Below are positions 2,927 to 46,699 of a DNA stretch of 47,101 bases, piece after piece. The position numbers and the translations under genes are program-made. The notes under the pieces are model-generated. The model saw nothing but the letters and a program-made list of their open reading frames with translations. It was not told the DNA's origin and searched no databases. Source of the stretch: Anaerolineae bacterium (GTDB lineage Bacteria; Chloroflexota; Anaerolineae; J102); the NCBI GenBank assembly GCA_026991225.1, contig JALXCB010000130.1:1-47101 (forward strand). The letters run 5' to 3'. The number at the start of each line of letters is the position of its first letter. The stretch's first letter is position 1.

Positions 2927-4150
2927 ATGCGCATCCTGCAACTCACGCCGCAATTCCCCTGGCCCACCCACCAGGGCACGACCCTGCGCAACTTCAATCT
3001 GCTCAAGGCCCTGGCCCGACGCCACGAAATGCATCTCTTCAGCATGTTGGCGCCGGGGGATGACCCCGCGGCCGGGCCTGTGTCCGGGCTTGTGGCGTCC
3101 ATGGCTGTTGCGCCTCAGCCCGCGCGCACGATGGGCGACCGTCTGCGAGACCTGCTGCTCAGCCCTCTGCCCGACATGGCCCGGCGTCTCTGGAGCCCCG
3201 CGGCCTTCGATGAGCTGGCCCGCTTCGTCCAGACGGTGCAGCCCGACATCCTCCTCATCGAAGCCATCGAGATGGCCCCTTACTTTTTCGCATTGCGCGA
3301 GGCGGGGATTCGGCCGGGCCGGGCCATCTACGACGCCCACAACGCCGAGACCTTGCTGCAACAGCGCGCGGCCCGGGCCGACGCCCGCCGTCCCAAACGC
3401 TGGCCCGCGGCCCTTTACTCCGCCATCCAGACAGCCAGGCTGCGGCGCTATGAGGCCCGGTTGTGTCGCTCGGTGGCGGGCGTCTCCGCGGTCAGTGAGC
3501 CCGACGCCCGCTTTCTGCACGCTCTGGCTCCGCAAACGCCCCTGCAGGTGGTCACCAATGGCGTGGATATGGCCCTCTACCAGCCCGACGCCTCCTTCCC
3601 GCCCGTGTTCACGGGCCCGGGCCCCCATCTCGTCTTTACGGGCAAGATGGATTTCCGGCCCAATGTGGACGCGGCGCTGTGGTTCGCGGAGGAGGTGATG
3701 CCGCTGTTGAGACAACGTGGGGTGCACGCGCATTTCTGGGTGGTGGGGCGCAATCCTCACGCCCGACTGAAGCCCCTGCGCTCGAGAGAGGATGTGACCA
3801 TCACCGGGGAAGTTCCCGATGTGCGTCCCTACATCGTGCAGGCGGATGTGTACGTGGTTCCTCTCCTGGCGGGCGGCGGCACCCGCTTCAAGATTCTGGA
3901 ATCCCTGGCGCTGGCGAAGCCCGTCGTCTCCACCACCCTGGGCGCGGACGGCATCCCTGTGGTGGATGGGGAGCATCTGGCTTTGGCCGATGCGCCCGAT
4001 GCGTTCGCGCGCCGGGTGGTGGAACTGCTGTCGCATAGGGAGGAAGCGCGGGCCATGGGCTGGCGCGGACGGGCCTTCGTGGCCGAGCGCTTCGATTGGT
4101 CTGTCATCGCACCGAAGCTGGAAGCGCTGTTTAAACTAAACGCATTTTGA
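2927..4150 (+). CDS. GT4-family glycosyltransferase (stp1-like)
   Basis: A 407-residue cytoplasmic or membrane-associated transferase with the GT-B fold. ATG 2927 is chosen because the N-terminus then reads MRILQLTPQFPWPTHQG, the standard first strand and Gly-rich loop of the acceptor domain. The C-terminal donor domain shows FTGKMDFRPNVDA, then VPLLAGGGTRFKILESLA, the E-x7-E region that grips the nucleotide sugar. The FTGKMDFRPNVDA segment is characteristic of the group next to exosortase/exopolysaccharide loci. Inferred role: sugar transfer in surface polysaccharide or glycoprotein assembly, which fits the upstream secreted glycosidase. Oddity: the last five codons and the stop (KLNAF-stop) are made from the left end of a dispersed repeat that begins near 4132, so the original C-terminus was probably replaced. 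Confidence 0.88.
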   Translation: MRILQLTPQFPWPTHQGTTLRNFNLLKALARRHEMHLFSMLAPGDDPAAGPVSGLVASMAVAPQPARTMGDRLRDLLLSPLPDMARRLWSPAAFDELARFVQTVQPDILLIEAIEMAPYFFALREAGIRPGRAIYDAHNAETLLQQRAARADARRPKRWPAALYSAIQTARLRRYEARLCRSVAGVSAVSEPDARFLHALAPQTPLQVVTNGVDMALYQPDASFPPVFTGPGPHLVFTGKMDFRPNVDAALWFAEEVMPLLRQRGVHAHFWVVGRNPHARLKPLRSREDVTITGEVPDVRPYIVQADVYVVPLLAGGGTRFKILESLALAKPVVSTTLGADGIPVVDGEHLALADAPDAFARRVVELLSHREEARAMGWRGRAFVAERFDWSVIAPKLEALFKLNAF

Positions 4151-4378
4151 AATCAGGTGTTTTCGGCCTCGGCCACCCGGAGCTGAAGCTCCGGGCTACG
4201 AAACGACGCCGGGTGAACCCGGCTTCCTGCGGCGAGCGACCTGCGGCGTAGCCCCATTTATGGGGCGTCGTTTTTAGCCCGCAGGTGAACCTGCGGGCGG
4301 CGGCGCGGCCAGAGAATCGCCTTTCACTGATGATCCAATGCGAACCAAAAGCCTTGGTTTCAATTTGCTTTCAGTATA
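4132..4378. repeat. Large structured intergenic repeat, copy 1 (~247 bp)
   Basis: Nearly the whole stretch recurs at about 46142-46453 in the same orientation. The left edge TAAACTAAACGCATTTTGAAA pairs imperfectly with the complement of the right edge (TTTCAATTTGCTTTCAGTATA), giving terminal inverted repeats of about 25 bases. Inside are stable GC hairpins: CCCGGAGCTGAAGCTCCGGG, ACGCCGGGTGAACCCGGCTT, GCCCCATTTATGGGGC and GCCCGCAGGTGAACCTGCGGGC. It has no open reading frame of interest. It could be a MITE or a transcribed structured RNA or terminator, and the sequence alone does not decide. Confidence 0.75.
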
Positions 4379-4719: not shown

Positions 4720-7314
4720 GTGAAACGCAAGTATTTTCTACTCCTAACACTGGTCGTGCTGCTGGCGCTGATGGTCACCACCGTCGCCTTTGCAGCAGGA
4801 CCGGAGAACTCACCCCACCAGCAGGGCGACCGCGAAGGTTGTATCGCCTGTCATGAGGGGATCGAGAACATTCGCCAGCCGGATACGCTGATGTATCAGC
4901 AGATCCAGGCGATGGGCGAGTGCACCGCCTGTCATGGCGGCGATCCCACCGTGACGGACGACAAGGACGCGGCGCACTCGGGTGAATTCTATCCGGATCC
5001 GGGTAGCATCTGGGTCTCGGACAAAACCTGTGGCAAGTGCCATCCCGGTTACACCGAACACCTGAAGCTGGCCCTGATGAACACCGAAATGGGCAAGATT
5101 CAGGGCAACCTGGTGACCTGGGGCGCGCAGAAGGATCGCAAGCCCATTTACGCCAACTACACCCTGGACGACACCGATGGTCTGACGCCCGCCGTGGGTA
5201 CGGACGTCTACAAGGAGTACATGGCCAAGATCATCGAGAACTATCCGGACAACTTCCCCACCCACGTGGATCAGCTGCCCAACCCCACGGTGGAAGAGAT
5301 CGTCCAGGACCCCTCCAAGGCGGCCTTCACCTATCAGCGCCAGCAATGTCAGCGCTGCCATGTGGGCGTGCAGCCTCGCACCAAGCGCGGCGACTGGCGC
5401 GGCGCCGGCTGCTCTTCCTGTCACATCCCCTACAGCAACGAGGGCTTCTACGAGGGCAACGATCCCACCATCCCCAAGGATGAGCCGGGCCATCTGCTGA
5501 CGCACCAGATTCAGGCCACCCGGGACGCCAAGGTCACCGTCAACGGCCACACTTACTCCGGCATCCCCGTCGAGACGTGCAACTCCTGCCATAACCGCGG
5601 CAAACGCATCGGCGTGAGCTACGAAGGCATTATGGAGTTCCCCTATGGCACGCCCTTCGACGAGAGCGGCATGGGGCAGCCCAAGCTGCACACCAAGAAA
5701 TACCTCTACATCAAGGACGACCTCCATCACTCGGTGGAGAGCCGGCCTGAGAACCCCAAAGGCGGCATGTTGTGCCAGGACTGCCACACCAGCCTGGAAA
5801 TGCACGGCGACGGCAACATGCCCGCCACCACCCTGGCCCAGGTGGAGATCGAGTGCGCTGACTGCCACGGCACCCCCGATGCCTATCCCTGGGAGCTGCC
5901 CATTGGCTTCGGCGAAGAAGAGCTGATGATGGGGCAGATCAGCGATCAGCCGCGCGGCCTGTGGGAGAGCGACACCTTGCCCGACAACAAGACGTACTTC
6001 GGCATGAAGTATGATCCCGAAGACGGCTTCCTGCTCACCACCCGCGGCAACCCCTTCGAGAATGTGGTCAAGAAGGGGGACGAGGTCATCGTCCATTCCG
6101 CCAGCGGCCTGGACTTCAAGGTGCCCCTGTTGAAGAAGATCAAAGAGGACGGCACCTGGAAGAGCAAGGACGCGGAAGTGGCCATGGACAAAGTCGCCAA
6201 GCACATGGACAACCTGGAATGCTACTCCTGCCATGCCGACTGGGCGCCTCAGTGCTATGGCTGCCATGTGACTATGGACTACTCTGAGGGCAAAGAGGAT
6301 AGCGACTGGGTGGCCCGCGGCAATGCACACATGGAAAACGGCCTCAACGACATGACCATCAAATCGCCCGGCAAGGCCAAGGAAGGGCGCTCCTACCTGC
6401 GTTGGGAAGAGCCTATCCTCGGCGTCAACGGCGAAGGTCGCGTCACCCCGCTCATCCCTGGCTGCCAGGTCATCTACACGGTCGTCGGGCCCAATGGCGA
6501 GAATCTGGCCCACAACGTCATCGCCACCAGCGAAGAAGCGCCCATGGCTCTGGATATGGCGCCGGTGCAGCCTCATACGGCTGGCCGTAAGGCCCGCACC
6601 TGCGAATCCTGCCACAATAATCCCAAAGCGTTGGGTTATGGTATCGAAGGCGGCCGCTTCCTGCAAGGGTACGAGAATGGCTTCATTGTGGACCTGGCCG
6701 ACGCAGAAGGCAACATCTTGCCCGCCAACGTCCAGTACCAGAGTCAGCCCGTACCCGCGCTCAAGACCGATCTGAGCCAGGTGGTGGACCCCGAGACGGG
6801 CGAACAGCTTATGGTGGTCGGTACCCACTGGCCTGCGTCCGCCCCTCTGAGCGCGGATCAACGCGCTCGCATGGAACGGGTGGGCCTGTGCATGGGCTGC
6901 CATCAGAACATGGCGGACGAAGCTTTCTGGACCAACGAAGTCATCGCCAAGTACGGCAAGATCACGACCAACGAAGAGCATATCGCCATGCTCAACCAGT
7001 TGGTGCATGACGCCGTGGCCAAGGGCGATGAGGAAGCGGCTCAGAAGTACCAGGACGCCATCAAGAAGCTGGAAGAGACCGAGGCCAAGCTGAAGGAAGC
7101 GGAAGCCAAAGCGCAAGAGGCCGAAGCCTCCGCCCAGGCGGCCGAGATGGAGAAGAAGAATCTCGAGGCCGAACTGGAGAAGGCCAAGGCCCAATCTCAA
7201 GTTGAGCAGGCGCCCGCGCCAGCCGAGGGCGGCAACAACCTGGTTGCCATCCTCATCGCGGCCCTGGTGGGCCTCGTGATTGGCGGCGGCGTCGCCTATG
7301 CCCTCAAGAAGTAA
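4720..7314 (+). CDS. Membrane-anchored dodecahaem cytochrome c with C-terminal coiled coil
   Basis: An 864-residue exported multihaem cytochrome. Seen: an N-terminal signal peptide (MKRKYFLLLTLVVLLALM..., cleavage near AFA-A26) and twelve CxxCH haem sites with first Cys at residues 41, 68, 104, 210, 231, 287, 352, 379, 501, 512, 628 and 724. An alternating Glu/Lys/Ala coiled coil follows at about 766-830. A Pro/Ala stretch comes next, then a single hydrophobic helix (about 843-861) and a Lys-Lys end, i.e. a tail anchor in the cytoplasmic membrane. No CxxCK site, which nitrite or tetrathionate reductases often use for the active haem, is present, so an electron-transfer or storage role is more likely than catalysis. 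It precedes the oxidase-like/alternative complex III genes on the same strand and may exchange electrons with them. I cannot place it in a named family. Confidence 0.85.
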   Translation: MKRKYFLLLTLVVLLALMVTTVAFAAGPENSPHQQGDREGCIACHEGIENIRQPDTLMYQQIQAMGECTACHGGDPTVTDDKDAAHSGEFYPDPGSIWVSDKTCGKCHPGYTEHLKLALMNTEMGKIQGNLVTWGAQKDRKPIYANYTLDDTDGLTPAVGTDVYKEYMAKIIENYPDNFPTHVDQLPNPTVEEIVQDPSKAAFTYQRQQCQRCHVGVQPRTKRGDWRGAGCSSCHIPYSNEGFYEGNDPTIPKDEPGHLLTHQIQATRDAKVTVNGHTYSGIPVETCNSCHNRGKRIGVSYEGIMEFPYGTPFDESGMGQPKLHTKKYLYIKDDLHHSVESRPENPKGGMLCQDCHTSLEMHGDGNMPATTLAQVEIECADCHGTPDAYPWELPIGFGEEELMMGQISDQPRGLWESDTLPDNKTYFGMKYDPEDGFLLTTRGNPFENVVKKGDEVIVHSASGLDFKVPLLKKIKEDGTWKSKDAEVAMDKVAKHMDNLECYSCHADWAPQCYGCHVTMDYSEGKEDSDWVARGNAHMENGLNDMTIKSPGKAKEGRSYLRWEEPILGVNGEGRVTPLIPGCQVIYTVVGPNGENLAHNVIATSEEAPMALDMAPVQPHTAGRKARTCESCHNNPKALGYGIEGGRFLQGYENGFIVDLADAEGNILPANVQYQSQPVPALKTDLSQVVDPETGEQLMVVGTHWPASAPLSADQRARMERVGLCMGCHQNMADEAFWTNEVIAKYGKITTNEEHIAMLNQLVHDAVAKGDEEAAQKYQDAIKKLEETEAKLKEAEAKAQEAEASAQAAEMEKKNLEAELEKAKAQSQVEQAPAPAEGGNNLVAILIAALVGLVIGGGVAYALKK

Positions 7315-7452
7315 GACCGACCGATCCTGCATGATGTGCGAGGCGCCTTAGTCCAGGAGAGGCACAAGTCGACGTCCTTTGAGAGAGGAGTTATCGAATA
7401 AACAACGCAACTCCGGGCCTTATAGGCGCATCGCACATCCTTACTTAAAATG

Positions 7453-7561: not shown

Positions 7562-8488
7562 ATGGAACAGGCAATGACGCAGAAACACTCCGCATGGTGG
7601 CGCTGGCTTGTCGGCGCCATGGTGGCTGTTGTCGTTGGGGTTGGCGTTTGGTATGCACTGACGCATGTGTCTACATTGGGGGCCGCCAGTGGCCCCGAAA
7701 ACGCGAACGAAAGCGTGAGCGCCGAAGCAGAGACGACGGGCAGCGATCCCGCTGAATTGCCCATGGATGATTTTACCGAACTGGCGTTGGAGAAAGCCAA
7801 ACAGGGGGATGTGGATGGGGCTCTGGAGGCCTTTTCCGTGGCCATCGCCTCCAATCCCGATGGCGCATCCGTGCCCTATTACTATCGAGGATTGGTGTAT
7901 ATCGATCAGGGCAAGGTCATGGAAGCCATCGATGATTTCACCAAGGCCATCGAACTCGATAAGCATTTTCCGCAGGCCTATGCGGCCCGGGGCACCGCTT
8001 ATCTGATGACCAGCCGTCCTGCCAAAGCCGCGGAGGACTTCAACAAAGCCATCCAGCTTGATCCGAAAAACGCGACGACCTACGTCAATCGGGCGCGGGC
8101 CTATATGGGCCTGCAAATGCTGGAAGAAGCCGAATCGGACCTGAACACGGCCATCAAGCTGAATCCAAATCTGTTGCCCGCCTATTTCAACCGCGGCGTT
8201 CTCTTCATGCTCCAACAGCGCACCGAAGAGGCGCTGGCCGATTTCAACAAATGCGTGGAGATCAACCCCAACGCGCCCGCGCCTTACTTCAACCGGGCGG
8301 TCGCCTATATCGAATTGGGGGACAAAAAGGCCGCGGCCACGGACCTGGCCATCTATCTCACCCTCTCCAAGGATGAAGAGGGCAAGCATCAGGCCCGAGC
8401 GCTGCTGGATTCTCTCACCGGCACCCAGGGCCTGGACGTTCAACTTCAAGAGCAGGTGGACAGCGAGGATAACGGCCACAATCAGTAG
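7562..8488 (+). CDS. Membrane-anchored TPR protein
   Basis: 308 residues. The N-terminus is short and basic, then a single transmembrane helix (about 13-33, WLVGAMVAVVVGVGVWYAL) with an acidic Ser/Glu linker behind it. About six tetratricopeptide repeats follow from residue 63, with recurrent blocks such as AFSVAIASNPDG, DFTKAIELDK, DFNKAIQLDPKN, DLNTAIKLNPNL and DFNKCVEINPNA. Orientation by the positive-inside rule puts the TPRs outside the membrane. Known: such anchored TPR proteins act as assembly scaffolds for periplasmic or membrane complexes. Lying between the 12-haem cytochrome and the oxidase-like subunit, it is a reasonable assembly factor for this respiratory module, but that is inference. 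A weak -10 (TACAAT, 7521-7526) lies 35 bases upstream. Confidence 0.8.
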   Translation: MEQAMTQKHSAWWRWLVGAMVAVVVGVGVWYALTHVSTLGAASGPENANESVSAEAETTGSDPAELPMDDFTELALEKAKQGDVDGALEAFSVAIASNPDGASVPYYYRGLVYIDQGKVMEAIDDFTKAIELDKHFPQAYAARGTAYLMTSRPAKAAEDFNKAIQLDPKNATTYVNRARAYMGLQMLEEAESDLNTAIKLNPNLLPAYFNRGVLFMLQQRTEEALADFNKCVEINPNAPAPYFNRAVAYIELGDKKAAATDLAIYLTLSKDEEGKHQARALLDSLTGTQGLDVQLQEQVDSEDNGHNQ

Positions 8489-8682: not shown

Positions 8683-8823
8683 CCACGAAGACACGAAGGA
8701 GAAAAAGCGGCAGGTGGCAGGTGGCAAGTGGCAGGTGAAAAACACCGTAGTCAGAAAGACTTGCCACTTGCGACCTGCAAACCTGCGAACCTGCATTGTC
8801 TTTGTTCCTTCGAGCCTTCGTGG
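8683..8823. repeat. Nested hairpin repeat (CCACGAAG ... CTTCGTGG with GGCAGGTGGCAAGT words)
   Basis: Outer arms CCACGAAGACACGAAGG and CCTTCGAGCCTTCGTGG enclose a second inverted repeat made of 6-8 base words (GGCAGGTGGCAGGTGGCAAG... against ...CTTGCCACTTGCGACCTG), with tandem ACCTGC words after it. Closely similar copies lie at 10534-10654 and 46477-46624. Together with plain sequence on either side it occupies the 8489-8943 spacer, where no gene is visible. Confidence 0.75.
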
Positions 8824-8894
8824 CAGAGCGTTTTGCTGGATACCTGTATAGTCACTCTGGATTTTTACGTCCGCATTATTGCTTTTTGACCTGT

Positions 8895-8910
8895 ATTACG
8901 AAGTCGTAAT
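8895..8910. promoter_or_regulatory. Perfect 16-bp palindrome upstream of the oxidase-like gene
   Basis: ATTACGAAGTCGTAAT reads ATTACGA-AG-TCGTAAT, a perfect 7+2+7 inverted repeat. It starts 3 bases after a TTGACC hexamer (8886-8891) and ends 33 bases before the start codon at 8944. The layout suits an operator next to a -35 box, although no good -10 follows at the usual distance. Confidence 0.4.
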
Positions 8911-8943
8911 CATCCAATCATCATTGTGAAGAAGGAGTGATCT

Positions 8944-10533
8944 ATGGCAAGCGCTCCATCTGCGGCAGCCGCCGCAGCACCCAAGTTGACCTATTGGAAT
9001 GCCAGTTACACCTTCAAATCCTGGTTGTTGACCACCGATCATAAACGCATTGCGTTTTTGTATCTGCTGGTGGTCTCCGGGTTTGCCGCTTTCGGGCTTG
9101 GCACAGCGGTGATCTTGCGGCTGGAGTTGTTTACGCCGCAACAAGAACTTTTTCAAGATATCTACGCCCGCATGTTTACGCTGCATGGGGGCGCCATGGT
9201 GTATCTGTTCATGTTGCCGGCCATGCTGGGCGTGTTGGGCAATTTCGCCGTCCCCTTGATGATCGGGGCGAAGAATGTGGCCTTTCCCCGTCTCAACCTG
9301 CTCACCTTCTATATTTTCACCTTTGGCAGCAGTGGCATCGTCATGGAGGCGGCGTTTGGAGGGGCGGACGCCGGTTGGAATTTCCTGGCTCCGTACGCCA
9401 CCCTCTACACGCCCTCCCGGGTTCTGCCCGCCCTGGCCATCATCATGATCGCCGGGTTTTCGGTGTTTTTGATGGCCGTCAACCTCCTGTTCACGGTGCA
9501 TTGCCGCCGGGTGAAGGGGTTGGACTGGCAGGATCTGCCGTTCACCGTGTGGGGCTATTACCTGGTCAGCATCGGCATCATTGCTGGCAGTTTCTTCATG
9601 TTCGTGTGGGTGTTCTTTACCGCGACCATGCGGGAACAGATGCTGGGATATGTGAACTACGGGCTGAATCTGAATCCGCAGGTGACGGTGCAGAGTTTTT
9701 GGATTTTTGCGCAGACTTCCGTTTACATGATGTTGCTGCCCGCGGTGGGGATCGTTGCCGACATCATCGAGACTTTCGCCCGTCGCCCCCTGGTGGGCCG
9801 CAAAGGCGTCGAGCACGCGATGATTTCGCTGGCGGTGCTGATGTCCTTGAGCTGGGGCGTGCACACCTTCACCAGCGACCAGTGGGCCTGGGTCAATCTC
9901 TTCTTCTCCCTGGCGGCTTTCCTCAGCGCCATCCCCCTGGCCATCATCATCCTCAGCCTGTTCGTCACCATCCGCAAGGGGCATCCGTCCTTCACGTCGC
10001 CCATGGTGTTCGCCTTCAGCGTTCTGGTCTCCCTGGCCCTGTATCTGGTCAGCAGTCTGGCGCTCTATTCGCCCGCGACCGCGCAGGCGGTCCTCCACAC
10101 CCAATTCGAATGGGCCAACTTCCATCTCCTGATGGCGGGAGTGGTGTTGACGGCGTTTCTGGCGGGCATGCACTATTGGTGGCCCAAGGCGACCGGGCGC
10201 ATGTATCCTGAGCTTTTCGCCAAGGTGACCGCCTGGATCATCTTCCTGGGCGTGTTGGGAACATTCCTGCCCGGCTTTTTGCTGGGGCTGTTGGGCATGC
10301 GCACCCGGGTAGTGGCCTATCCCGAAGGCTGGCTGATGCCCAATCAGCTCATCACCACCAGCACGCTCTTGTTGGTGCTGGGGCTTTCGCTGCCCTTGCT
10401 CTACTTCTTCTACGCGGTCTTCTGGGGCGAGCGCAGCGGTTCCAATCCCTGGGACTCGGCCACGTTGGAATGGCGCACCTCCTCGCCTCCTCCACCCGAG
10501 AATTTCACCGGCGACATGCTGGCCGACGTATAA
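8944..10533 (+). CDS. Haem-copper oxidase subunit I homologue lacking the CuB/high-spin haem site
   Basis: A 529-residue, roughly 12-helix membrane protein clearly homologous to A-type cytochrome c oxidase subunit I: LTTDHKRI near the start, TLHGGAMVYLF, GAKNVAFPRLN, WWPKATGRMY and a GLLGMRTRV end. Both low-spin haem ligands are present (H81 and H394). The catalytic residues are not. The HPEVY site reads AQTSVY (CuB His to Q257, proton-gate Glu to S259), the CuB His-His pair reads V306-H307, and the high-spin haem His is N392 in ANFH. The D-channel Asp is N111, and the K-channel segment VPTGIK reads IPLAII (330-335). The frame is full length and undamaged. Known: without these residues O2 cannot be reduced and proton pumping is lost. 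Inferred: a one-haem electron-transfer or quinone-facing subunit of a complex with the neighbouring alternative complex III. RBS GAAGGAG precedes ATG 8944. Confidence 0.92.
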   Translation: MASAPSAAAAAAPKLTYWNASYTFKSWLLTTDHKRIAFLYLLVVSGFAAFGLGTAVILRLELFTPQQELFQDIYARMFTLHGGAMVYLFMLPAMLGVLGNFAVPLMIGAKNVAFPRLNLLTFYIFTFGSSGIVMEAAFGGADAGWNFLAPYATLYTPSRVLPALAIIMIAGFSVFLMAVNLLFTVHCRRVKGLDWQDLPFTVWGYYLVSIGIIAGSFFMFVWVFFTATMREQMLGYVNYGLNLNPQVTVQSFWIFAQTSVYMMLLPAVGIVADIIETFARRPLVGRKGVEHAMISLAVLMSLSWGVHTFTSDQWAWVNLFFSLAAFLSAIPLAIIILSLFVTIRKGHPSFTSPMVFAFSVLVSLALYLVSSLALYSPATAQAVLHTQFEWANFHLLMAGVVLTAFLAGMHYWWPKATGRMYPELFAKVTAWIIFLGVLGTFLPGFLLGLLGMRTRVVAYPEGWLMPNQLITTSTLLLVLGLSLPLLYFFYAVFWGERSGSNPWDSATLEWRTSSPPPPENFTGDMLADV

Positions 10534-10654
10534 AGTGGCAGGTGGCAAGTGGCAGGTGAAAAACGTCGCCGCCAGAAGGACTTGCCACTTGCGATTTGCA
10601 AACCTGCAAACCCGCATTGTCTTCGTTCCTACGAGCCTTTGTGGCAAGACATTT
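10534..10654. repeat. GGCAGGTGGCAAGT hairpin repeat, starts right at the stop codon
   Basis: The repeat begins one base after the TAA of the oxidase-like gene (AGTGGCAGGTGGCAAGTGGC) and pairs with ACTTGCCACTTGCGATTTGC about 40 bases on. ACCTGC/ACCCGC words and CGAGCCTTTGTGGC follow. It is the same family as 8683-8823 and 46477-46624 but lacks the left outer arm. Confidence 0.7.
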
Positions 10655-10736
10655 CCGAGGCTGAATCGGGCTATCTGATTACTCATCGTCAGCATTAAAG
10701 TCTCTTCATACGACTCTTCGTCAATGAGGATGCAAT

Positions 10737-11408
10737 ATGTCCCAAATCTTTCATCCCTCCCTCAACCTGATCGCCAAAGCCATGGTGTTGGTCACTGCTG
10801 TCTTGTTGGTGGTTGGCTCGGTGGTCTCCTACGTGTTTGTGCGTTCGCCCTACATGCGCGGCACGACCATCGCCCGGGAACAGCCGGTCTTCTTCAGCCA
10901 TGAGCACCATGTGGGCGAATTGGGGCTGGACTGCCGCTATTGCCATGTGAATGTGGAGCGCAGCTCCTTCGCGGGCGTGCCCTCCACCGATATCTGCATG
11001 GGCTGCCATTCGCAGGTTTGGGCCAAAAGCCCCGCCATTGCGCCCATCAAGGAGAGCATGGAAAACAATCAGCCCATTGCCTGGAACCGGGTCAACAGCA
11101 TCCCAGACTACGCTTTCTTCAATCACAGCATCCATATCAACAAAGGCATCCCGTGCAAGGAGTGTCATGGGCGCGTGGACAAGATGGGGTGGACGCGGAA
11201 GGCTCAGCCCCTGTCCATGGAATGGTGTCTGAATTGTCATCGCAATCGGCAAGATCACCTGGTGCCGCGCGAGGAAGTCTTCAACATGGAGTATGAACTG
11301 CCGTCGGATCCTGCGGAACGGGAGGCGCTGCAAGCGGCCCTGGTGGCGAAGTATCACGTGGATGTGAAGCAGTTCCAGGTCACCGACTGCTCGGTATGTC
11401 ACCGATAA
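10737..11408 (+). CDS. actA: Alternative complex III subunit A, pentahaem cytochrome c
   Basis: 223 residues with one N-terminal membrane helix (about 15-36) and five CxxCH haem sites (CRYCH, CMGCH, CKECH, CLNCH and the C-terminal CSVCH), the count expected for ActA. The FFSHEHHVGELGLDCRYCH segment and the FNHSIHINKGIPCKECHG segment are typical of the family. Known: ActA is the periplasmic haem subunit that takes electrons from the iron-sulfur subunit ActB and passes them towards the cytochrome c or oxidase partner of this quinol oxidoreductase. It is the first of six consecutive act genes, and the oxidase-like subunit I lies immediately upstream. Confidence 0.92.
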   Translation: MSQIFHPSLNLIAKAMVLVTAVLLVVGSVVSYVFVRSPYMRGTTIAREQPVFFSHEHHVGELGLDCRYCHVNVERSSFAGVPSTDICMGCHSQVWAKSPAIAPIKESMENNQPIAWNRVNSIPDYAFFNHSIHINKGIPCKECHGRVDKMGWTRKAQPLSMEWCLNCHRNRQDHLVPREEVFNMEYELPSDPAEREALQAALVAKYHVDVKQFQVTDCSVCHR

Positions 11409-11512
11409 GGGCGAGGCATACCGCATTCATCTCCTACGTTGGCTTTCATTCTCGCAAATCGCACGAATCGTTTTGTAGCTCTTATCCCCTCACCTAATTC
11501 GAGAAGGTGATT

Positions 11513-14482
11513 ATGGACGAAAAACGTTTGCAAATTTCCGAACTTCGCAAGCGGCTTGCCGAGAAGACCGGCAAGACCTATTGGCGAAGTTTCAACGAGA
11601 TCGCGGACACCGAGGAATTCCGCGAGTTTCTGGAGCAGGAATTCCCCGCGGGCGCGGCCTATCTGGATGACCCCACCGGCGTCACCCGCCGCACCTTCCT
11701 CAAGATCATGGGCGCATCCATGGCGCTGGCCGGGCTCACCGCCTGCACGGCTACGAATCCCGAGAAGATCGTGCCTTATGTGCAGGCACCCGAGGAGATT
11801 ATACCGGGCGAGCCCCTGTTCTACGCCACCGCGTTCCCCATGGGCGGCTACGGCATGGGCGTTCTGGTGGAGACGCATGAGGGCCGCCCCACCAAACTCG
11901 AAGGCAACGAAAATCACCCCGCCAGTCTGGGGGCCACCGACCTCTTCGCGCAGGCTTCCATCCTCGATCTCTACGATCCCGACCGTTCCCGGCAGCCCAC
12001 GCGCAAGGGCCTGATGAAGTCCTGGGCCGATTTCACGGCCGAGCTGAGTGAGAACCAGAAGGGTTGGGGGGATGGCGAGGGCGTGCGCATCCTTACGGGC
12101 GCGGTGACGTCGCCCACGCTGGCCAGCCAGATCCAGGCGTTTCTGGAGCAGTATCCCGCGGCCCGGTGGCATCAATATGAGCCCGCTGGCCGCAACAGCG
12201 CCCGCGTGGGAGCCCGGCTCGCCTTCGGCGAGGACGCGGACGCGCTTTATCATTTCGACAAGGCCGATGTCGTCCTCGCCCTGGATGCGGATTTCCTCTC
12301 CTCCGGCCCCACCAGCGTGCGCTACGCCAAGGACTTCATGAAGCGCCGCCGCATCGCCGGCAAAGGCGAGGGTGATGTGGAGATGAACCGCCTCTATGTG
12401 GTGGAGGCGAATCTGACCAACACCGGCGTCATCGCCGACCATCGGCTGCCCATCCGGGCGGTGGATGTGGAGCATTTCGCCCGCTCGCTGGCCCAGAAGC
12501 TGGGGCTGGATGTGCAGGGCGGGGACCCCGAAAAGTATGGCGAATGGCTGGACACCCTGGCCGCGGACCTGGAGGCCCACAAAGGGAGCAGTATCGTCAT
12601 TCCCGGCGACCAGCAGGACCCGGTCGTCCACGCCCTGGCTCACGTCATCAATCAGGCCCTGGGCAACGTGGGCGAGACGGTCACCTATATCGAGCCGGTG
12701 GAGGCCAATCCGGTGGATCAGGACAAAGACCTGGCCCAATTGGCTGCGGACATGCACGCGGGCGCGGTCAAGGCCCTGTTCATCTTCGACGGCAACCCGG
12801 CGTACAGCGCCCCGGTGGATCTGAACTTCAAGGACGGGTTGAAAAAAGTTCCCTTCAGCGTCTATATCGGCGCCTTGCTGGATGAGACCGCGGTGGAGAG
12901 CCTGTGGTACATTCCCCGCAGCCATTATCTGGAATCGTGGGGCGATGTGCGGGCCTTCGACGGCACGGTGACCATCATGCAGCCCATGATCGAGCCGCTC
13001 TACCAGAGCAAGTCGGACTATGAACTGATGGCCGCGTTGCTGGGCCAGCCCGACGCCACGGGCCATGAGATCGTGAAGGGCTACTGGCAGGCGCACGCGA
13101 ACGCGGAGGATTTCGACAAATTCTGGCGCATTGCCCTGAATCGAGGCTATCTGGAGGATTCCCAGGCCCCGGAGAAGGCGGTCACCGCTTCGGTCGCGAG
13201 CGTGGCTCAGCCCGTCAATGTCTATTCGGATGCCATGGAGATCGTCTTCCGTCCCTCGCCCAGCCTGTGGGATGGCCGCTTCGCCAACAACGGCTGGCTG
13301 CAGGAGGTTCCCAACGGCATCACCAAGCTCACCTGGGACAATGCGGCCATGATGGCGCCCGCTCAGGCGGAGCGTCTGAATCTGGCCGAGGGGGATGTGG
13401 TCAGGCTGGAGTACTACGGCCAGGCGGTGGAAGCGCCTGTGTTGATCCTGCCCGGCCACGCCGACAACTCGGTCACCATCTATCTGGGCTACGGGCGGCA
13501 CGTCATCGGCGATGTGGGGCGGGATGTGGGCTTCAACGCCTACACCATCCGCACCGCCCACAAGCCCTGGCAGGATACGGGCCTGATCCTCGGTTACACT
13601 GGCAAGACCCACACCCTGGCCCGCACGCAGGATCACCATCTCATGGAGGGGCGGCCTCTGGTTGTCAGCGGCACCCTGGAGGAATTCAAGAAAAATCCCG
13701 AATTCGTGAAGGAGGAGACCGAATACGAGAAGATTTCCCTCTATCCCGAATTCGCCTACCGGGGCAACGCCTGGGGCATGACTGTGGACCTGAGCGCCTG
13801 CATCGGCTGCAACGCCTGCGTCATCGCCTGTCAGGCCGAGAACAATATCCCCATCGTGGGTAAGGAAGAGGTGCTGCGGGGCCGGGAGATGCACTGGATG
13901 CGCATCGATCGCTACTTCATCGGCGACCTGGACAATCCCGATGTGGTCTACCAGCCCGTCATGTGCCAGCAGTGCGAGGGCGCTCCTTGCGAGGTCGTTT
14001 GCCCGGCCGCGGCCACGGTGCACAGCCGGGAGGGCCTCAACGACATGGTCTACAATCGCTGCATCGGCACCCGGTATTGCGAAAACAACTGCCCCTACAA
14101 AGTGCGCCACTTCAACTTCTTCCAGTATGTGGATGTGGACACGCCTTCGTTGCAACTGATGCGCAATCCCAACGTCACTGTCCGCTCCCGCGGCGTTATG
14201 GAGAAATGCACTTACTGCGTGCAGCGCATCAACGCCGCCCGCATCCGCGCCAAGAAGGAGAACCGTCCGATTCGCGATGGCGAAGTCAAGACCGCCTGCC
14301 AGGCGGTGTGTCCCACCGACGCCATCGTGTTCGGCAATATCGAGGACAAAGAGAGCCAGGTGGCCCGATTGAAAGAGAGCCCCCTGAACTACGAGCTCCT
14401 GGGCGAACTCAACGTGCAGCCCCGCACCACCTACCTGGCCCGGCTGAAGAACCCCAACCCCAACCTTGCGGAGGAGGTGTAA
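11513..14482 (+). CDS. actB: Alternative complex III subunit B, molybdopterin-like/iron-sulfur fusion
   Basis: 989 residues from the ATG at 11513 (RBS GAGAAGG; a GTG six bases earlier is less likely). An internal twin-arginine signal R59-R60-TFLK shows export by Tat as a folded protein. Residues about 80-740 form the molybdopterin-oxidoreductase-like B1 domain, which in this family binds no cofactor. Residues about 750-970 form the B2 domain with four Cys clusters: C763 (CIGCNACVIAC), C818 (CQQCEGAPCEVVC), C850 (CIGTRYCENNCPYKVR) and C899 (CTYCVQRI...CQAVCP), matching three [4Fe-4S] and one [3Fe-4S]. Known role: relays electrons from quinol at ActC to the ActA haems. It is three bases from actC. 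Confidence 0.94.
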   Translation: MDEKRLQISELRKRLAEKTGKTYWRSFNEIADTEEFREFLEQEFPAGAAYLDDPTGVTRRTFLKIMGASMALAGLTACTATNPEKIVPYVQAPEEIIPGEPLFYATAFPMGGYGMGVLVETHEGRPTKLEGNENHPASLGATDLFAQASILDLYDPDRSRQPTRKGLMKSWADFTAELSENQKGWGDGEGVRILTGAVTSPTLASQIQAFLEQYPAARWHQYEPAGRNSARVGARLAFGEDADALYHFDKADVVLALDADFLSSGPTSVRYAKDFMKRRRIAGKGEGDVEMNRLYVVEANLTNTGVIADHRLPIRAVDVEHFARSLAQKLGLDVQGGDPEKYGEWLDTLAADLEAHKGSSIVIPGDQQDPVVHALAHVINQALGNVGETVTYIEPVEANPVDQDKDLAQLAADMHAGAVKALFIFDGNPAYSAPVDLNFKDGLKKVPFSVYIGALLDETAVESLWYIPRSHYLESWGDVRAFDGTVTIMQPMIEPLYQSKSDYELMAALLGQPDATGHEIVKGYWQAHANAEDFDKFWRIALNRGYLEDSQAPEKAVTASVASVAQPVNVYSDAMEIVFRPSPSLWDGRFANNGWLQEVPNGITKLTWDNAAMMAPAQAERLNLAEGDVVRLEYYGQAVEAPVLILPGHADNSVTIYLGYGRHVIGDVGRDVGFNAYTIRTAHKPWQDTGLILGYTGKTHTLARTQDHHLMEGRPLVVSGTLEEFKKNPEFVKEETEYEKISLYPEFAYRGNAWGMTVDLSACIGCNACVIACQAENNIPIVGKEEVLRGREMHWMRIDRYFIGDLDNPDVVYQPVMCQQCEGAPCEVVCPAAATVHSREGLNDMVYNRCIGTRYCENNCPYKVRHFNFFQYVDVDTPSLQLMRNPNVTVRSRGVMEKCTYCVQRINAARIRAKKENRPIRDGEVKTACQAVCPTDAIVFGNIEDKESQVARLKESPLNYELLGELNVQPRTTYLARLKNPNPNLAEEV

Positions 14483-14485: not shown

Positions 14486-15856
14486 ATGGCGGCTTCCACA
14501 GATTCGGCTGAAGTCCCGGTCCTCGGTCCGGGGCAAACCTATGCGACCGTCACCGACCGCATCAGCGGCGTCATCCTCACCAAAGAGACGCCGCGAGGGT
14601 GGTGGATAGGCTTCGGCATCGCCTTTATGGTGATGATGCTGATGCTCTTTTCCCTGACGGTGTTGTTCGCCAAAGGCGTCGGCGTCTGGGGTCTGGACAA
14701 CACCGTGGCCTGGGGGTTCGCCATCGTCAACTTCGTGTGGTGGGTCGGTATCGGTCACGCCGGCACCCTGATCTCGGCCATCCTCCTGCTCTTCCGGCAG
14801 GAATGGCGCAATTCCATCAACCGCTTCGCCGAAGCCATGACCATTTTCGCGGTGGCCAACGCCGGGCTCTTCCCCATCATCCACACCGGTCGTCCATGGC
14901 TGGCTTACTGGCTCCTGCCCTATCCCAGCATGTTCCAGTTGTGGCCGCAGTTCCGCAGCCCTCTGCTGTGGGATGTGTTCGCCATCTCGACTTACGTGAC
15001 CATCTCCCTCCTCTTCTGGTATGTAGGGCTCATTCCCGACTTCGCCACCCTGCGGGATATGGCGGATAACAAGGTTGTGCGGCGGATTTACGGCGTCTTC
15101 GCCCTGGGCTGGCGGGGCGCGGCCCGGCACTGGGCGCAATACTCCCGGGCCTCGTTGCTGCTGGCGGCCCTGGCCACGCCTCTGGTGGTGTCGGTGCACA
15201 GCGTGGTCAGCTTCGACTTCGCGGTCAGCTCCGTGCCCGGCTGGCACACCACCTTCCTGCCACCCTACTTCGTCTCGGGCGCCATCTTCTCCGGCTTCGC
15301 CATGGTGCTCACCCTGGCCATTCCCATCCGCAAGTACTTCCACATGGAGGATTTCATCACCGACCGCCATCTGGAGAATATGGCCAAGGTGATGCTGGCG
15401 ACGGGATTGATCGTGTTCTACGCCTACATTATGGAAGTATTCTTCGCCTGGTACAGCGGCAATCAGTATGAGCAATTCATGATTTACAATCGCATGACCG
15501 GGCCTTACGCGCCTTACTACTGGTCGCTGATCCTGGCCAACGGCGTCATCCCACAGTTGCTGTGGTTCAAGAGGGTGCGACGCACGCCCTGGATTCTATT
15601 CATCATTGCCATCATCGTGAACATTGGCATGTGGCTGGAGCGATTCATCATCGTGGTCACCAGTCTGCATCGGGAATATCTGCCTTCTACCTGGACGTAC
15701 TATGCAGGCACGTTTTGGGACTGGTCGCTCTACATCGGCACCCTGGGCTTCTTCTTCGCCCTCATCTTCCTCTTCCTGCGGGTGCTGCCCATGATCAATA
15801 TGTTCGAAATGAAAGAACTGGTTCACCACCTTTCCCACCGAGGCAAGGAGCATTAA
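14486..15856 (+). CDS. actC: Alternative complex III subunit C, NrfD-like quinol-binding membrane protein
   Basis: 456 residues, about 10 membrane helices, of the NrfD/PsrC family. Typical segments: TPRGWWIGFGIAF at helix 1, WWVGIGHAGTLISAILLL (the conserved Gly-His-Ala before the quinone site), HTGRPWLAYWLLPYP, and HSVVSFDFAVSSVPGWHTT with the conserved His/Asp pair. Known: ActC binds menaquinol at the periplasmic side and is proposed to form a half proton channel. It starts three bases after actB and ends three bases before actD, so the genes are translationally linked. Confidence 0.94.
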   Translation: MAASTDSAEVPVLGPGQTYATVTDRISGVILTKETPRGWWIGFGIAFMVMMLMLFSLTVLFAKGVGVWGLDNTVAWGFAIVNFVWWVGIGHAGTLISAILLLFRQEWRNSINRFAEAMTIFAVANAGLFPIIHTGRPWLAYWLLPYPSMFQLWPQFRSPLLWDVFAISTYVTISLLFWYVGLIPDFATLRDMADNKVVRRIYGVFALGWRGAARHWAQYSRASLLLAALATPLVVSVHSVVSFDFAVSSVPGWHTTFLPPYFVSGAIFSGFAMVLTLAIPIRKYFHMEDFITDRHLENMAKVMLATGLIVFYAYIMEVFFAWYSGNQYEQFMIYNRMTGPYAPYYWSLILANGVIPQLLWFKRVRRTPWILFIIAIIVNIGMWLERFIIVVTSLHREYLPSTWTYYAGTFWDWSLYIGTLGFFFALIFLFLRVLPMINMFEMKELVHHLSHRGKEH

Positions 15857-15859: not shown

Positions 15860-16390
15860 ATGAGCGAATCGGTATATGGCCTTATCGCCAGATTCGACAC
15901 GCCCGAAGCGGTGGTGGAAGCGACCCGTCGGGCGCGCGAGGCTGGCTATAAAAAGATGGAAGCCTATTCGCCGTTCCCCATCGAGGAACTGACGGAAGTC
16001 CTGGATTTCAAGCCCAAGATCCAGTATCTGGTCTTGATCGGTGGCATCCTGGGCGCGATCACAGGGTTCGCCTTGCAATACTACGCCTCGGTCATCGCCT
16101 ATCCCCTCATCATCGGCGGACGGCCTTTCAATAGCTGGCCTGCATTCATCGTCGTCGAATTCGAGTTGACCATTCTCTTCGCGGGGCTGGCCGCGGTCTT
16201 TGGCATGTTGGGGCTGAACGGCTTTCCTCATCCCTATCATCCCGTGTTCAACGCCAAGGACTTCAACCTGGTCTCGCGAGACAAGTTCTTCCTGGTCATC
16301 GAATCCAACGATCCGCGTTTCGATCGGGATCGCACTCGGGCCTTTCTGGAAAGCCTGCATCCCGAGGAAGTCACCGAAGTGCATCCATAG
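15860..16390 (+). CDS. actD: Alternative complex III subunit D (DUF3341)
   Basis: 176 residues with the family pattern: a short cytoplasmic N-terminal fold (VYGLIARFDTPEAVVEATRRAREAG, then YKKMEAYSPFPIEEL), two membrane helices (about 53-75 and 90-112), and a C-terminal soluble part with HPVFNAKDFNLVSRDKFFL. Known: ActD is an accessory membrane subunit lying against ActC/ActF, without a redox cofactor. It sits between actC (3-base gap) and actE (9-base gap). Confidence 0.93.
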   Translation: MSESVYGLIARFDTPEAVVEATRRAREAGYKKMEAYSPFPIEELTEVLDFKPKIQYLVLIGGILGAITGFALQYYASVIAYPLIIGGRPFNSWPAFIVVEFELTILFAGLAAVFGMLGLNGFPHPYHPVFNAKDFNLVSRDKFFLVIESNDPRFDRDRTRAFLESLHPEEVTEVHP

Positions 16391-16399: not shown

Positions 16400-17002
16400 A
16401 TGCAACCCAAACGCACCTTTCACACCTTACGTCGAGCGGGATGGATTTGCGCGGTCTTTTGTCTGGCCTTGATCCTGACCGGGTGTACGATGACCATGAA
16501 AGATCAGCCTCGGGTCAATCCTTATGAGCCCGCTCCCTTCTTCGGCGACCAGGGTTCGGCCCTGCCGCCCGTGGAAGACACCGTGCCCTATGGCATGGCC
16601 AACACCGACGAAGCCCTCTACACCGGGCAGGTGGACGGCCAGTATGTGGAAGAGTATCCCTTCATGATCACGAAGGAGGGGCTGGAATACGGCCGTCAGC
16701 GCTACGACATCTACTGTGCACCCTGTCATGGCTATGCGGGCAACGGGGATGGCATGGTGGTGCAACGCGGCTTCCGTCAACCCCCCACCTTCCATCAAGA
16801 TCGCCTGCGGGAGGCCCCTCCTGGCTACTTCTTCTACGCCATCACCAATGGCTTCGGAACCATGCCCAGCTACGCCAACCGCATTCCGGTCCACGATCGG
16901 TGGCTCATCATCGCCTATATCGAGGCCCTGCAACTCAGCCAGCACGCGCCCGTGTCTGAGTTGCCTCAGGAGGATGTGGCGAAGCTGGAGGCTACGCAAT
17001 GA
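16400..17002 (+). CDS. actE: Alternative complex III subunit E, monohaem lipoprotein cytochrome c
   Basis: 200 residues. A lipoprotein signal with lipobox LTGC puts the lipidated Cys at residue 29. One haem site C106-APCH is followed by GYAGNGDGMV, and a Met-containing segment (GFGTMPSYANRIP) near residue 155 supplies the likely axial Met ligand. The MKDQPRVNPYEPAPFF segment just after the signal is a family hallmark. Known: ActE is the periplasmic monohaem subunit and likely exit point for electrons. Its last four bases overlap the actF start (ATGA). Confidence 0.93.
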   Translation: MQPKRTFHTLRRAGWICAVFCLALILTGCTMTMKDQPRVNPYEPAPFFGDQGSALPPVEDTVPYGMANTDEALYTGQVDGQYVEEYPFMITKEGLEYGRQRYDIYCAPCHGYAGNGDGMVVQRGFRQPPTFHQDRLREAPPGYFFYAITNGFGTMPSYANRIPVHDRWLIIAYIEALQLSQHAPVSELPQEDVAKLEATQ

Positions 17003-18219
17003 AGGAGCAAACCATGACTCGAATTCAGGCAGACGAGAAACTGCTCAAGCGACTGGGGTCCTACCAGAAAGCGTCGCTGATCGTCGGCGTGCTGGGGATT
17101 CTCGTCCTCATCGCGGGGTATTTCCTGGGCGCGGAGGACTTCTTCCCCGGCTATCTCATCGGCTGGATGTTCTGGATGCAAGTGGCCCTGGGCGCGTTGG
17201 TAATTCTCATGATTCAGAACACCGTGGGCGGTCGCTGGGGGCTGATCATTCAGCGGGTGGTGGAAGCCGCCACCATGACCATCCCGCTGTTGGGCGTGCT
17301 GTTCATCGTCGTGATCATCGGCATTCCCCATCTCTATGAATGGTCTCATGCCGAGGTCGTGGCCCACGATGAGCTTTTGCAGCACAAGGCCCCCTATCTG
17401 AACACACCCTTCTTCATCATCCGCTCGGTGATTTATTTCGTGCTGTGGGGCGGCATCGCCTGGCTGCTGCGAAAATGGTCCGTGAAGCTGGATGAGCATC
17501 CCGACGATGCGGCCACGCGCAAGAAACTGCGCAATCTCAGCGCTCCGGGCATTCTCCTCTTCGGTTTCACCGTGACGTTCGCTTCGGTGGACTGGATGAT
17601 GTCGCTGGAGCCTCACTGGTACTCCACCATTTATGGCATGATGTTCGGCGTGGGCGCTCTGGCGTCGGGCTTCGCCTTCAGCATTGTCGTCCTCATGGGC
17701 ATGGTCAAATACAAGCCCTGGTCGGGGATCATTCAAACCCTGGATGTCAGCGACCTGGGCAACTGGCTGCTGGCGGCCGTCATGCTGTGGGCCTATATGG
17801 CTTTCTCGCAGTTCCTCATCATCTGGTCCGCCAACTTGCCTGAGGAGACCACCTGGTATATTGCCCGCACCACCGGCGGCTGGCAATGGGTGGCCATCAT
17901 CAACGTTTTCCTCCATTTCTTCCTGCCCTTCTTCCTGCTGCTCTCGCGTGGGACGAAGAAGGAGCCCGGGCGTTTGAAAAAGGTCGCCTGGCTGGTGCTG
18001 ATCATGCGTTTCGTGGATCTGGTGTGGATGATCTATCCGGCATTCTCGCCCGGCAAACTGGCCTTTCCCTGGGTCTCCCTGGCCGCGCTGATTGGCGTCG
18101 GCGGTCTCTTCCTGGCGATTTTCTTCCATCAGGTGGCGAAGGTTAGCGTGCCGCCGTTGTACGATTCCCGATTACCGGTCACGCAAGCTTCTGAGGAGGC
18201 GCACGGTCATGTCAGCTAA
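16999..18219 (+). CDS. actF: Alternative complex III subunit F, NrfD-like membrane protein
   Basis: 406 residues with about 10 membrane helices, a paralogue of ActC. Recognisable features are GWMFWMQVALGALVILMIQ, an extracytoplasmic loop with HDELLQHKAPYLN, and FTVTFASVDWMMSLEPHWYST, which is diagnostic of ActF. Known: the second core membrane subunit, proposed to take part in proton translocation though it lacks a quinone site in solved complexes. Its ATG overlaps the actE stop, and its own end overlaps the next small gene by 11 bases. Confidence 0.93.
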   Translation: MKEQTMTRIQADEKLLKRLGSYQKASLIVGVLGILVLIAGYFLGAEDFFPGYLIGWMFWMQVALGALVILMIQNTVGGRWGLIIQRVVEAATMTIPLLGVLFIVVIIGIPHLYEWSHAEVVAHDELLQHKAPYLNTPFFIIRSVIYFVLWGGIAWLLRKWSVKLDEHPDDAATRKKLRNLSAPGILLFGFTVTFASVDWMMSLEPHWYSTIYGMMFGVGALASGFAFSIVVLMGMVKYKPWSGIIQTLDVSDLGNWLLAAVMLWAYMAFSQFLIIWSANLPEETTWYIARTTGGWQWVAIINVFLHFFLPFFLLLSRGTKKEPGRLKKVAWLVLIMRFVDLVWMIYPAFSPGKLAFPWVSLAALIGVGGLFLAIFFHQVAKVSVPPLYDSRLPVTQASEEAHGHVS

Positions 18220-18550
18220 CACCACCCGTCATCCCGGCTACGAGTCGGGGGGTTATGGACGCACTCTGTTATTGCTTGTCATCATTTTTGTGGTGGCGGT
18301 GATGGGCCTGTATGTGGCGCTGGATGGCGAATTCGGCGCTTCCAAAGTGACGGCCTTCCCTGTGGACACCACCGGCTTCAAAGAGCCTGTGCTCCAGATC
18401 GACCCGGTGGCTGATCTGAAAGCTTATCAGGCGCAGGAAGCGGAATTGCTGAACAGCTACGGCTGGGTGGACAAAGCCGCGGGCGTCGCCCGTATTCCCA
18501 TCGAACGCGCGATTGAAATTACTGCACAGCAAGGATTGCCGCATCGTTAA
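18209..18550 (+). CDS. Small single-helix membrane protein of the act/cox cluster
   Basis: 114 residues starting at ATG 18209, inside the last codons of actF, with RBS GAGGAGG. One N-terminal helix (about 19-39), then a periplasmic tail ending LNSYGWVDKAAGVARIPIERAIE. That sentence-like motif (a Tyr-Gly-Trp-x-Asp turn followed by RIPIxRA) is, from memory, common in small proteins encoded between alternative complex III or cytochrome c oxidase genes in many phyla. Function unknown. Translational coupling to actF argues for a structural or assembly role in the same complex. It might be considered an ActG analogue, but I cannot show homology. Confidence 0.8.
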   Translation: MSANTTRHPGYESGGYGRTLLLLVIIFVVAVMGLYVALDGEFGASKVTAFPVDTTGFKEPVLQIDPVADLKAYQAQEAELLNSYGWVDKAAGVARIPIERAIEITAQQGLPHR

Positions 18551-20985: not shown

Positions 20986-21210
20986 CTGATTGACTGACAA
21001 AACACGTTTTGGTCTGCTGTGGTCGCCTATACTGTCGACTGAGGTCGTACCATTCCAGGCCTGCGGCCAGTGGACGGCCTCCGCCGTCCATGTTCATGAT
21101 GGAAATCAGGTCGACGAAGGTCGACCACAGGCGCGAAGCGCCTAAAGAGCCCGGGTTTACTCGGTGAATACGGTCGGAAAGGAAAGCCTCAAGATTTGTC
21201 AGTCAACCAG
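20986..21210. mobile_element. 225-bp MITE with 15-bp inverted ends and 9-bp target duplication
   Basis: Left end CTGATTGACTGACAA (20986-21000) and right end TTGTCAGTCAACCAG (21196-21210) are inverted repeats with one mismatch in 15. CTCCGTACG lies directly outside both (20977-20985 and 21211-21219), a perfect 9-bp target duplication. The interior has the GGCCTGCGGCC, TGGACGGCCTCCGCCGTCCA and GGCGCGAAGCGCC hairpins shared with 2625-2822. Known: ends starting CTG with 9-bp duplications are typical of IS4-family (IS10/IS50-like) elements, so such a transposase may mobilise it; this is inference. It sits just ahead of lutB. Confidence 0.88.
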
Positions 21211-21303
21211 CTCCGTACGTCATCCAGAGAAGTGCGGGCCTGCGAAATCCTGACATTGTCGGCGGATTTGGCGATAGCGCCTCGAGATGGGACAATAACG
21301 CCC

Positions 21304-22551: not shown

Positions 22552-22566
22552 GCCCAAAATGCTGTT

Positions 22567-23112
22567 ATGAACGAGACCCTCGTCAACGTCTTTCTGCATC
22601 ATCTGGAAGCCCTGGGCGCGACCTGGGAGTTGGCGGATAATCCCATCGCCGCTCGGCTGACGCTGCTACACTATTTGAACGCGCTCAATCGAAAAGATAT
22701 CCTGGCCTGGGAGCCCGAGGCGCTGTCCCTGCCCGGACTGCCCGAAGCGCTGGCGGACATTGGCCTGACGCTGACGCCCACCCATCGTCGCAATCTCAAC
22801 CCAGAGCTGCTGGTAGGGGTGACTTCGGCGGACGCGGGCCTGGCCGACACCGGGTCGCTGGTGCTGCATCTGGCGCAGGGACAATCCTGGCTGCCGGCGT
22901 TGGTGACGTTGCACCATGTGGCCCTGTTGCCCGCCAGCCGCCTTTTTCCCGACATGACTACCTGGCGACGGGCATGGATGGCCACCCGGCCTGGGGATCT
23001 GGCATCCTCGATCATCATCACGGGGCCCAGCAGCGCCGACGATATCGAACTGCATCCGCATCGGGGCATGTTTGGCCCGGGCCGGCAGCATGTGATTTTA
23101 TTTTACGACTGA
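22567..23112 (+). CDS. lutC: LutC-like LUD-domain protein
   Basis: 181 residues. LUD family features are visible: LGATWELADN near the start, then VGVTSADAGLADTGSLVLHL (the conserved Gly-Leu-Ala-Asp-Thr-Gly loop), HHVALLPASRLFPDM and a C-terminal ITGPSSADDIELHPHRGMFGPG (Gly-Pro-Ser-x-Ala-Asp-Ile-Glu), the strongest family signature. Known: partner of LutB in lactate or related 2-hydroxyacid oxidation. Its stop TGA shares bases with the 8-bp target duplication GATTGGGC of the following mobile element, which therefore landed right at the end of the gene without damaging it. Confidence 0.87.
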   Translation: MNETLVNVFLHHLEALGATWELADNPIAARLTLLHYLNALNRKDILAWEPEALSLPGLPEALADIGLTLTPTHRRNLNPELLVGVTSADAGLADTGSLVLHLAQGQSWLPALVTLHHVALLPASRLFPDMTTWRRAWMATRPGDLASSIIITGPSSADDIELHPHRGMFGPGRQHVILFYD

Positions 23113-46453: not shown

Positions 46454-46476
46454 TTACTCACGTAGCGAGGCAAAAA

Positions 46477-46624: not shown

Positions 46625-46699
46625 CAAAGCATTTTCGAGGCCGAACCAGGCCACCTTAGCAGTTACGCGTTCATTGCGAATTGGTCGTGACATTTATAT

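Follow-up and report, generated by a model that had tools for sequence, protein, structure and literature searches.

An oxidase subunit I homologue without a binuclear centre in an alternative complex III gene cluster of Chloroflexota

Locus and gene order

The window, that is the whole stretch of 47,101 nucleotides analysed here, comes from an Anaerolineae genome and contains the genes of an alternative complex III (ACIII) together with homologues of cytochrome c oxidase subunits I and II, designated CoxI′ and CoxII′. The genes of the locus are the following, all on the forward (+) strand.

4720 to 7314, +: multihaem cytochrome c with 12 CXXCH motifs and a C-terminal hydrophobic stretch, upstream of CoxI′
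7562 to 8488, +: TPR protein, conserved in genus g1 in its place after the multihaem cytochrome and before CoxI′
8944 to 10533, +: CoxI′, 529 residues, subunit I homologue without the binuclear centre (open reading frame, Pfam, alignment and AlphaFold2)
10737 to 11408, +: ActA, pentahaem cytochrome c (five CXXCH)
11507 to 14482, +: ActB, molybdopterin-like and FeS fusion, also used for a tree
14486 to 15856, +: ActC, NrfD-like quinol subunit
15860 to 16390, +: ActD (PF11821, 212.6 bits), the sole ActD of the genome
16400 to 17002, +: ActE, monohaem cytochrome c (one CXXCH)
16999 to 18219, +: ActF-like integral membrane protein without a Pfam match, named by position, size and conservation
18209 to 18550, +: membrane protein of 113 residues, also found 3′ of ActF in most intact ACIII-oxidase clusters examined
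18867 to 20768, +: CoxII′, subunit II homologue without CuA and with three c-haem domains (CXXCH at residues 235, 352 and 552)

The gene set of an ACIII, from ActA to ActF, is present in full, with ActF assigned by position and size only. CoxI′ is the first gene of this operon, and a short gap separates the gene of the 113-residue protein from that of CoxII′. The order of CoxI′ and the ACIII operon is kept in nine of nine congeneric genomes as far as their contigs extend. Elsewhere, CoxI′-ActA-ActB-ActC is found in a genome of the sister genus (G010) and CoxI′-ActABCDEF in a genome of another family (G246), whereas intact relatives have ActB to ActF followed by CoxII and CoxI instead. The 12-haem cytochrome lies upstream of CoxI′ in genus g1 wherever contigs reach, complete in five species and partial in two.

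Some other features surround these genes. Two LUD-domain genes of the lactate-utilisation type, one of them with 4Fe-4S motifs, are located 3′ of CoxII′ (21196-23112). Intergenic repeat copies (families D1 and D5) flank the CoxI′ gene at 8685-8855 and 10524-10676 and occur again near the end of the window at 46487-46656. A second pair of long intergenic repeats (families D3 and D7), at 4134-4378 and 46144-46456, is 94-99% identical across a distance of 42 kb. Long antisense frames are also found on the minus strand, at 4810-7332 opposite the multihaem cytochrome and at 8896-10695 opposite CoxI′, and are probably a by-product of codon usage.

The reading frame of CoxI′ runs uninterrupted from the ATG at 8944 to the stop codon at 10533, complete as the earlier note on this DNA had described it. 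By fold and sequence family the protein belongs to A-type subunit I. It spans positions 1-425 of the 436 of the Pfam COX1 model (E 5.6e-76), and its nearest PDB structures are subunits I of A-type cytochrome c oxidases (2yev, E 1.6e-66). The AlphaFold2 model, made with 50 homologues, has a mean pLDDT of 89.6 and a pTM of 0.92, and superposes on subunit I of the R. sphaeroides oxidase over about 490 residues with a Z score of about 50 and an rmsd of 1.9 Å. Given this superposition, a misalignment by which other His residues would take the ligand positions, a doubt raised in the same note, is unlikely.

Residues lost and retained in CoxI′ and CoxII′

The haem-copper superfamily is recognized by a signature of six histidines, two for the low-spin haem, one for the high-spin haem and three for metal B (PMC3413370). 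The positions of these and other functional residues in the window are given below; the counts for CoxI′ refer to a survey of 11 species by alignment.

9184 to 9186, +: H81, low-spin haem ligand, present in 11 of 11 species
10123 to 10125, +: H394, low-spin haem ligand, present in 11 of 11
9712 to 9714, +: Q257 at CuB His1 (Q in seven species, H in three, R in one)
9859 to 9864, +: V306 at CuB His2 (His gone in 11 of 11) and H307 at CuB His3 (present in 11 of 11)
10117 to 10119, +: N392 at the ligand of the high-spin haem, haem a3 (N in seven species, H in two, S in one, F in one)
9274 to 9276, +: N111 at the D-channel Asp (Asp gone in 11 of 11)
9946 to 9948, +: I335 at the K-channel Lys (Lys gone in 11 of 11)
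10303 to 10308, +: T454-R455 at the haem-propionate Arg pair; the first Arg (R473; position 454) is gone in 11 of 11, the second is present
19392 to 19427, +: TTQYSGTGYTKM, former CuA loop of CoxII′ (CAEYCGTxHxxM in intact homologues)

The alignment confirms what had been proposed from the window alone, namely that H81 and H394 are low-spin haem ligands, that N392, Q257 and V306 stand at the high-spin haem ligand, CuB His1 and CuB His2, and that N111 and I335 have replaced the canonical residues of the two proton channels. The window protein keeps three of the six signature histidines. The most complete member, G010, keeps five, which is the maximum for any member because CuB His2 is gone in all 11. 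CuB His1 is still present in G001, G002 and G010, and the high-spin haem His in G004, a sister species with 86% identity, and in G010; in both G004 and G010 the other residues of the binuclear site are incomplete. The earlier note had considered that close homologues with intact His would speak against it. Such residues do occur, but at single positions only, and no member among the 11 species has an intact binuclear centre.

Both proton channels lack their key residues throughout the survey, with Asp replaced by Asn or Gln and Lys by Ile or Val, and the Mg/propionate residues D364, H368 and D369 are also gone. One assignment could not be upheld. S259 had been read as the replacement of the proton-gate Glu. 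A2-type oxidases have Ala at the equivalent site, and since the closest intact relatives likewise carry Ala there (FYSHPAVY), S259 does not mark a lost Glu. What has changed is the Tyr-Ser pair of these relatives, with F255 and A256 in its place in CoxI′.

Retention is uneven within the protein. Among 148 positions at which at least 95% of 40 intact homologues agree, the degenerate clade retains 87 and loses 61. Consensus letters are retained at 75% of haem a contacts and 37% of binuclear-centre contacts, against a whole-protein background of 43%, the contacts being those that we take to be the bovine lists. In the haem a3 pocket (bovine numbers), G352 is replaced by L, W or I, A359 by Y or F and T316 by L, so that, as judged from residue identities and the presumed bovine contacts, the pocket looks as if it were filled by bulky residues. 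Conversely, R59, Y74, F78, M85, W145, F393, F441 and R455 of the low-spin pocket are almost unchanged over 11 species, where the background is far lower. Y261 and H307 of the former active site are invariant in the 11 species.

Other functions known for the superfamily were also considered. At the bo3-type quinol site, whose residues are presumably R71, D75, H98 and Q101 in E. coli numbers, CoxI′ has F50, T54, I73 and R76 (alignment to 9ufb). An NO reductase or NO dismutase would carry the ligand of haem b3 and two or more metal-B His, and the window protein has N392, Q257 and V306. A function of CoxI′ as quinol oxidase, NO reductase or NO dismutase was rejected, as the key residues are absent.

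The CuA site of subunit II consists of two Cys, two His, a Met and a Glu. CoxII′ was surveyed in eight species, the contigs of G010, G246 and G004 being incomplete there. In the CuA loop His is replaced by Tyr and the first Cys is gone in all eight, and the second Cys is gone in seven; none of the eight has a CuA site, and one His and the Met alone remain. The full CuA motif was found by pattern in 14 of the 16 intact ACIII-linked CoxII examined, and the CoxII of locus L088 (C-x-Q, outside the pattern) retains both Cys, His and Met in the alignment. CoxII′ has three c-haem domains vs one or two in intact homologues. The DNA of domains 1 and 3 (19577-19762 and 20528-20713) is 79% identical, and on this evidence the two are a recent internal duplication.

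At the level of residues, the alignments show that CuB cannot form in CoxI′, that the D and K channels and CuA are gone, and that the low-spin site is kept; a bis-His site made of H81 and H394 is predicted in 11 of 11 species. The loss of catalysis by CoxI′ is strongly supported by these comparisons.

Distribution, selection and origin

Orthologues of CoxI′ occur in nine of nine congeneric genomes at 70-86% identity, the copy of G008 being split over two contigs. Outside the genus, CoxI′ was found in the sister-genus genome G010 (49%) and in the other-family genome G246 (about 41%), the latter with a C-terminal extension (L081, 8360-8713, minus strand) that matches HHH_5, below the cut-off, and DUF4332 and is absent in other members. 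At the threshold used, seven further genera of the same family yielded no CoxI′. Four members are also present in a second genome collection, among Anaerolineae, Caldilineae and Chloroflexi metagenome assemblies, and 80 loci taken from genome contigs yielded degenerate homologues in those same four lineages only. No degenerate CoxI was found in a phylum sample of 400 besides that of the window's own genome, in the order of G246 besides G246 itself, or in viral contigs. About 130 other homologues, ACIII-linked A2-type oxidases included, have all ligands intact.

Within the genus, the dN/dS of CoxI′ is 0.055-0.145, a rough value yet far below 1, with dS from 0.9 upwards and near saturation; ActB and ActF of the same operon give the same range. 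Judging by these rates, the CoxI′ gene is kept by purifying selection. The view that the losses were selected and not due to decay is borne out as regards the intact gene and its purifying selection, but not as regards the particular replacements, which vary across species at 392 and 257. The occurrence of N, H, S or F at the former and of Q, H or R at the latter fits a release of constraint after catalysis was lost, and not a selection of N and Q.

In quick trees with SH-aLRT support, the degenerate CoxI′ sequences form one clade (100), which keeps a support of 97 after removal of all lost or newly fixed columns. The independent gene ActB, taken from these loci, likewise gives one clade (99; its tree row L096 is the same record as L081). 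The homologues do form a clade, a point that the earlier note had proposed to check, and the His at V306 is lost in all of them, but N and Q are not a fixed signature of it. The nearest intact relatives are ACIII-linked oxidases in clusters of the type ActB to ActF-small protein-CoxII-CoxI. The two clades, together with the CoxI′-ActA order shared by G010 and G246, show a cassette of single origin, which on the evidence of these trees descends once from an A2-type oxidase linked to ACIII. Within its cluster CoxI′ is less conserved than any other gene, with 41-70% identity among degenerate loci vs 58-77% for ActB; intact loci show the reverse (66-76% for CoxI vs 44-57% for ActB). In this reversal of identities a shift in the constraint on CoxI is visible.

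Possible role and relation to known systems

An intact caa3 oxidase, with its CuA site, is encoded elsewhere in the same genome, as is haem A synthase. The sole COX3 match of the genome, CoxIII, lies with this caa3 oxidase, and none was found in the window. With these genes at hand, CoxI′ would not be needed for O2 respiration. The genome also contains, on contig C80 (L007, 3581-7797, minus strand), a B-type (ba3-like) subunit I beside an 807-residue fusion of cytochrome b, ferredoxin and cytochrome c and, on contig C99 (L008, 5662-7800), a NorC/NorB-like pair that immediately follows genes for NADH dehydrogenase subunits.

The observations suggest that in a small Chloroflexota lineage CoxI′ and CoxII′ have become a non-catalytic component, for electron transfer or as a scaffold. 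The best explanation, which we regard as fairly probable, is that the pair derives from an ACIII-linked A2-type aa3 oxidase dismantled into a module of the ACIII cluster that does not reduce oxygen. The position in the ACIII operon and the CuA-less CoxII′ go beyond what the earlier note had described, and the loss of CuA in this context speaks more strongly for a repurposing of the entire oxidase. A more specific version is tentative, although plausible: the oxidase core (subunits I and II) may serve ACIII as a non-catalytic electron-transfer module, with a single low-spin haem, that feeds c-type or multihaem cytochromes and not O2.

In such a module, CoxI′ would bind a single low-spin haem, with two His ligands, towards the periplasm and, as gene order and co-inheritance suggest, would dock with CoxII′ on ACIII. 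Menaquinol electrons would leave ACIII via ActA and ActE, reach the three c-haem domains of CoxII′ and pass to periplasmic or surface cytochromes, in genus g1 perhaps to the upstream 12-haem cytochrome. CoxI′ would hold the assembly, and its low-spin haem would be either a side relay or a cofactor that stabilises the fold. The relay role is doubtful, as without CuA the distance between the c-haems and the low-spin haem may not allow fast transfer; since the c-haem path is lengthened and one periplasmic-side haem cannot move electrons through the membrane, the haem may be either a side relay or structural. The docking is a proposal because CoxIII, which joins oxidase and ACIII in F. johnsoniae, is not found with the pair. 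The single-haem state proposed for the window protein is likely from the invariant low-spin ligands and the missing O2 site, perhaps not in every member: residue 392 is not uniform, and its His in two species makes a two-haem state possible there. The invariance of H307 and Y261 has no explanation in the module reading and counts against it.

It is unlikely that CoxI′ and CoxII′ are instead a haem-free scaffold, which only holds the ACIII assembly or the c-haem domains and uses the two His for packing. In favour of this scaffold, both copper sites are absent, CoxII′ could carry electrons through its c-haem domains alone, and qNOR has retained a cytochrome c domain although bulky residues occupy the haem site there (PMC3413370). 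Against such a scaffold, the low-spin His and most residues of their pocket are almost unchanged in 11 species while the background is far lower. Quite improbable, in turn, is a new catalytic site, in which the pocket with a haem or a metal would perform other chemistry through the invariant H307 and Y261 and the new Gln387 and Glu389. Among the 10 aligned members, H307, Y261 and Q387 do not vary and E389 is present in nine, and G004 and G010 have the high-spin haem His; yet the proximal ligand is N, H, S or F and CuB His1 is Q, H or R inside one clade, a variation hardly expected of an active site, bulky residues fill the pocket, and the proton channels are gone.

A decaying gene, with CoxI′ and CoxII′ as passengers of the ACIII operon heading to loss, would agree with the low conservation of CoxI′ and its reversal in intact loci. 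It is nevertheless very improbable, given the well-formed predicted fold, the persistence across two families and the frames open in all species with synonymous divergence at close to 1 per site or higher; the dN/dS values and the open frames contradict a pseudogene. All CoxI′ members are metagenome assemblies, but an assembly or sequencing artefact in one bin is practically negligible, as the same losses recur with conserved neighbours in 11 independently assembled genomes, which also removes the local error that the earlier note had feared.

The catalytic haem-metal centre is taken as the defining mark of the haem-copper oxidase family. A search that covered mainly the open literature turned up no account of a haem-copper homologue that lacks the ligand of the catalytic haem. 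If the module reading is true, an oxidase core can serve alone as a redox or structural module, and the pseudo-oxidase is a previously undescribed use of the haem-copper fold. It also bears on annotation, since standard models name CoxI′ and CoxII′ as cytochrome c oxidase subunits I and II and aerobic respiration would be wrongly inferred from the locus. The members that retain single ligands (G004, G010, G001 and G002) are a natural series for the order in which parts were lost.

ACIII-oxidase gene clusters are known in Chloroflexus, as in the respiratory operon of Chloroflexus aurantiacus (PMC3150298). CoxI′ and CoxII′ resemble the A2-type aa3 oxidases of such clusters (C. aurantiacus, loci L082-L088) in the fold, the low-spin site, the c-haem CoxII partner and the ACIII link. 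Unlike them, the pair is without binuclear centre, proton channels, CuA and CoxIII, and CoxI′ stands before ActA and not after CoxII. In the ACIII-aa3 supercomplex of F. johnsoniae, as far as it is described in the work cited in PMC8361435, ACIII and an A-type oxidase are physically joined and the oxidase, which is active, contacts ACIII through CoxIII; at the CoxI′ locus the link is one of gene order and co-inheritance, and activity and CoxIII are both missing. The putative NO dismutase (NOD), a qNOR paralogue with altered ligands for which a new role has been proposed (PMC3413370), is like CoxI′ a haem-copper member with changed ligands. NOD has one metal-B His and the quinol (donor) site changed and keeps the catalytic haem b3, whereas CoxI′ is the converse and keeps the site of the electron-transfer haem. 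The vestigial cytochrome c domain of qNOR shares with CoxI′ a cofactor site filled by bulky residues in a fold that is kept (PMC3413370), but it is a soluble accessory domain, whereas CoxI′ is the membrane core of the enzyme.
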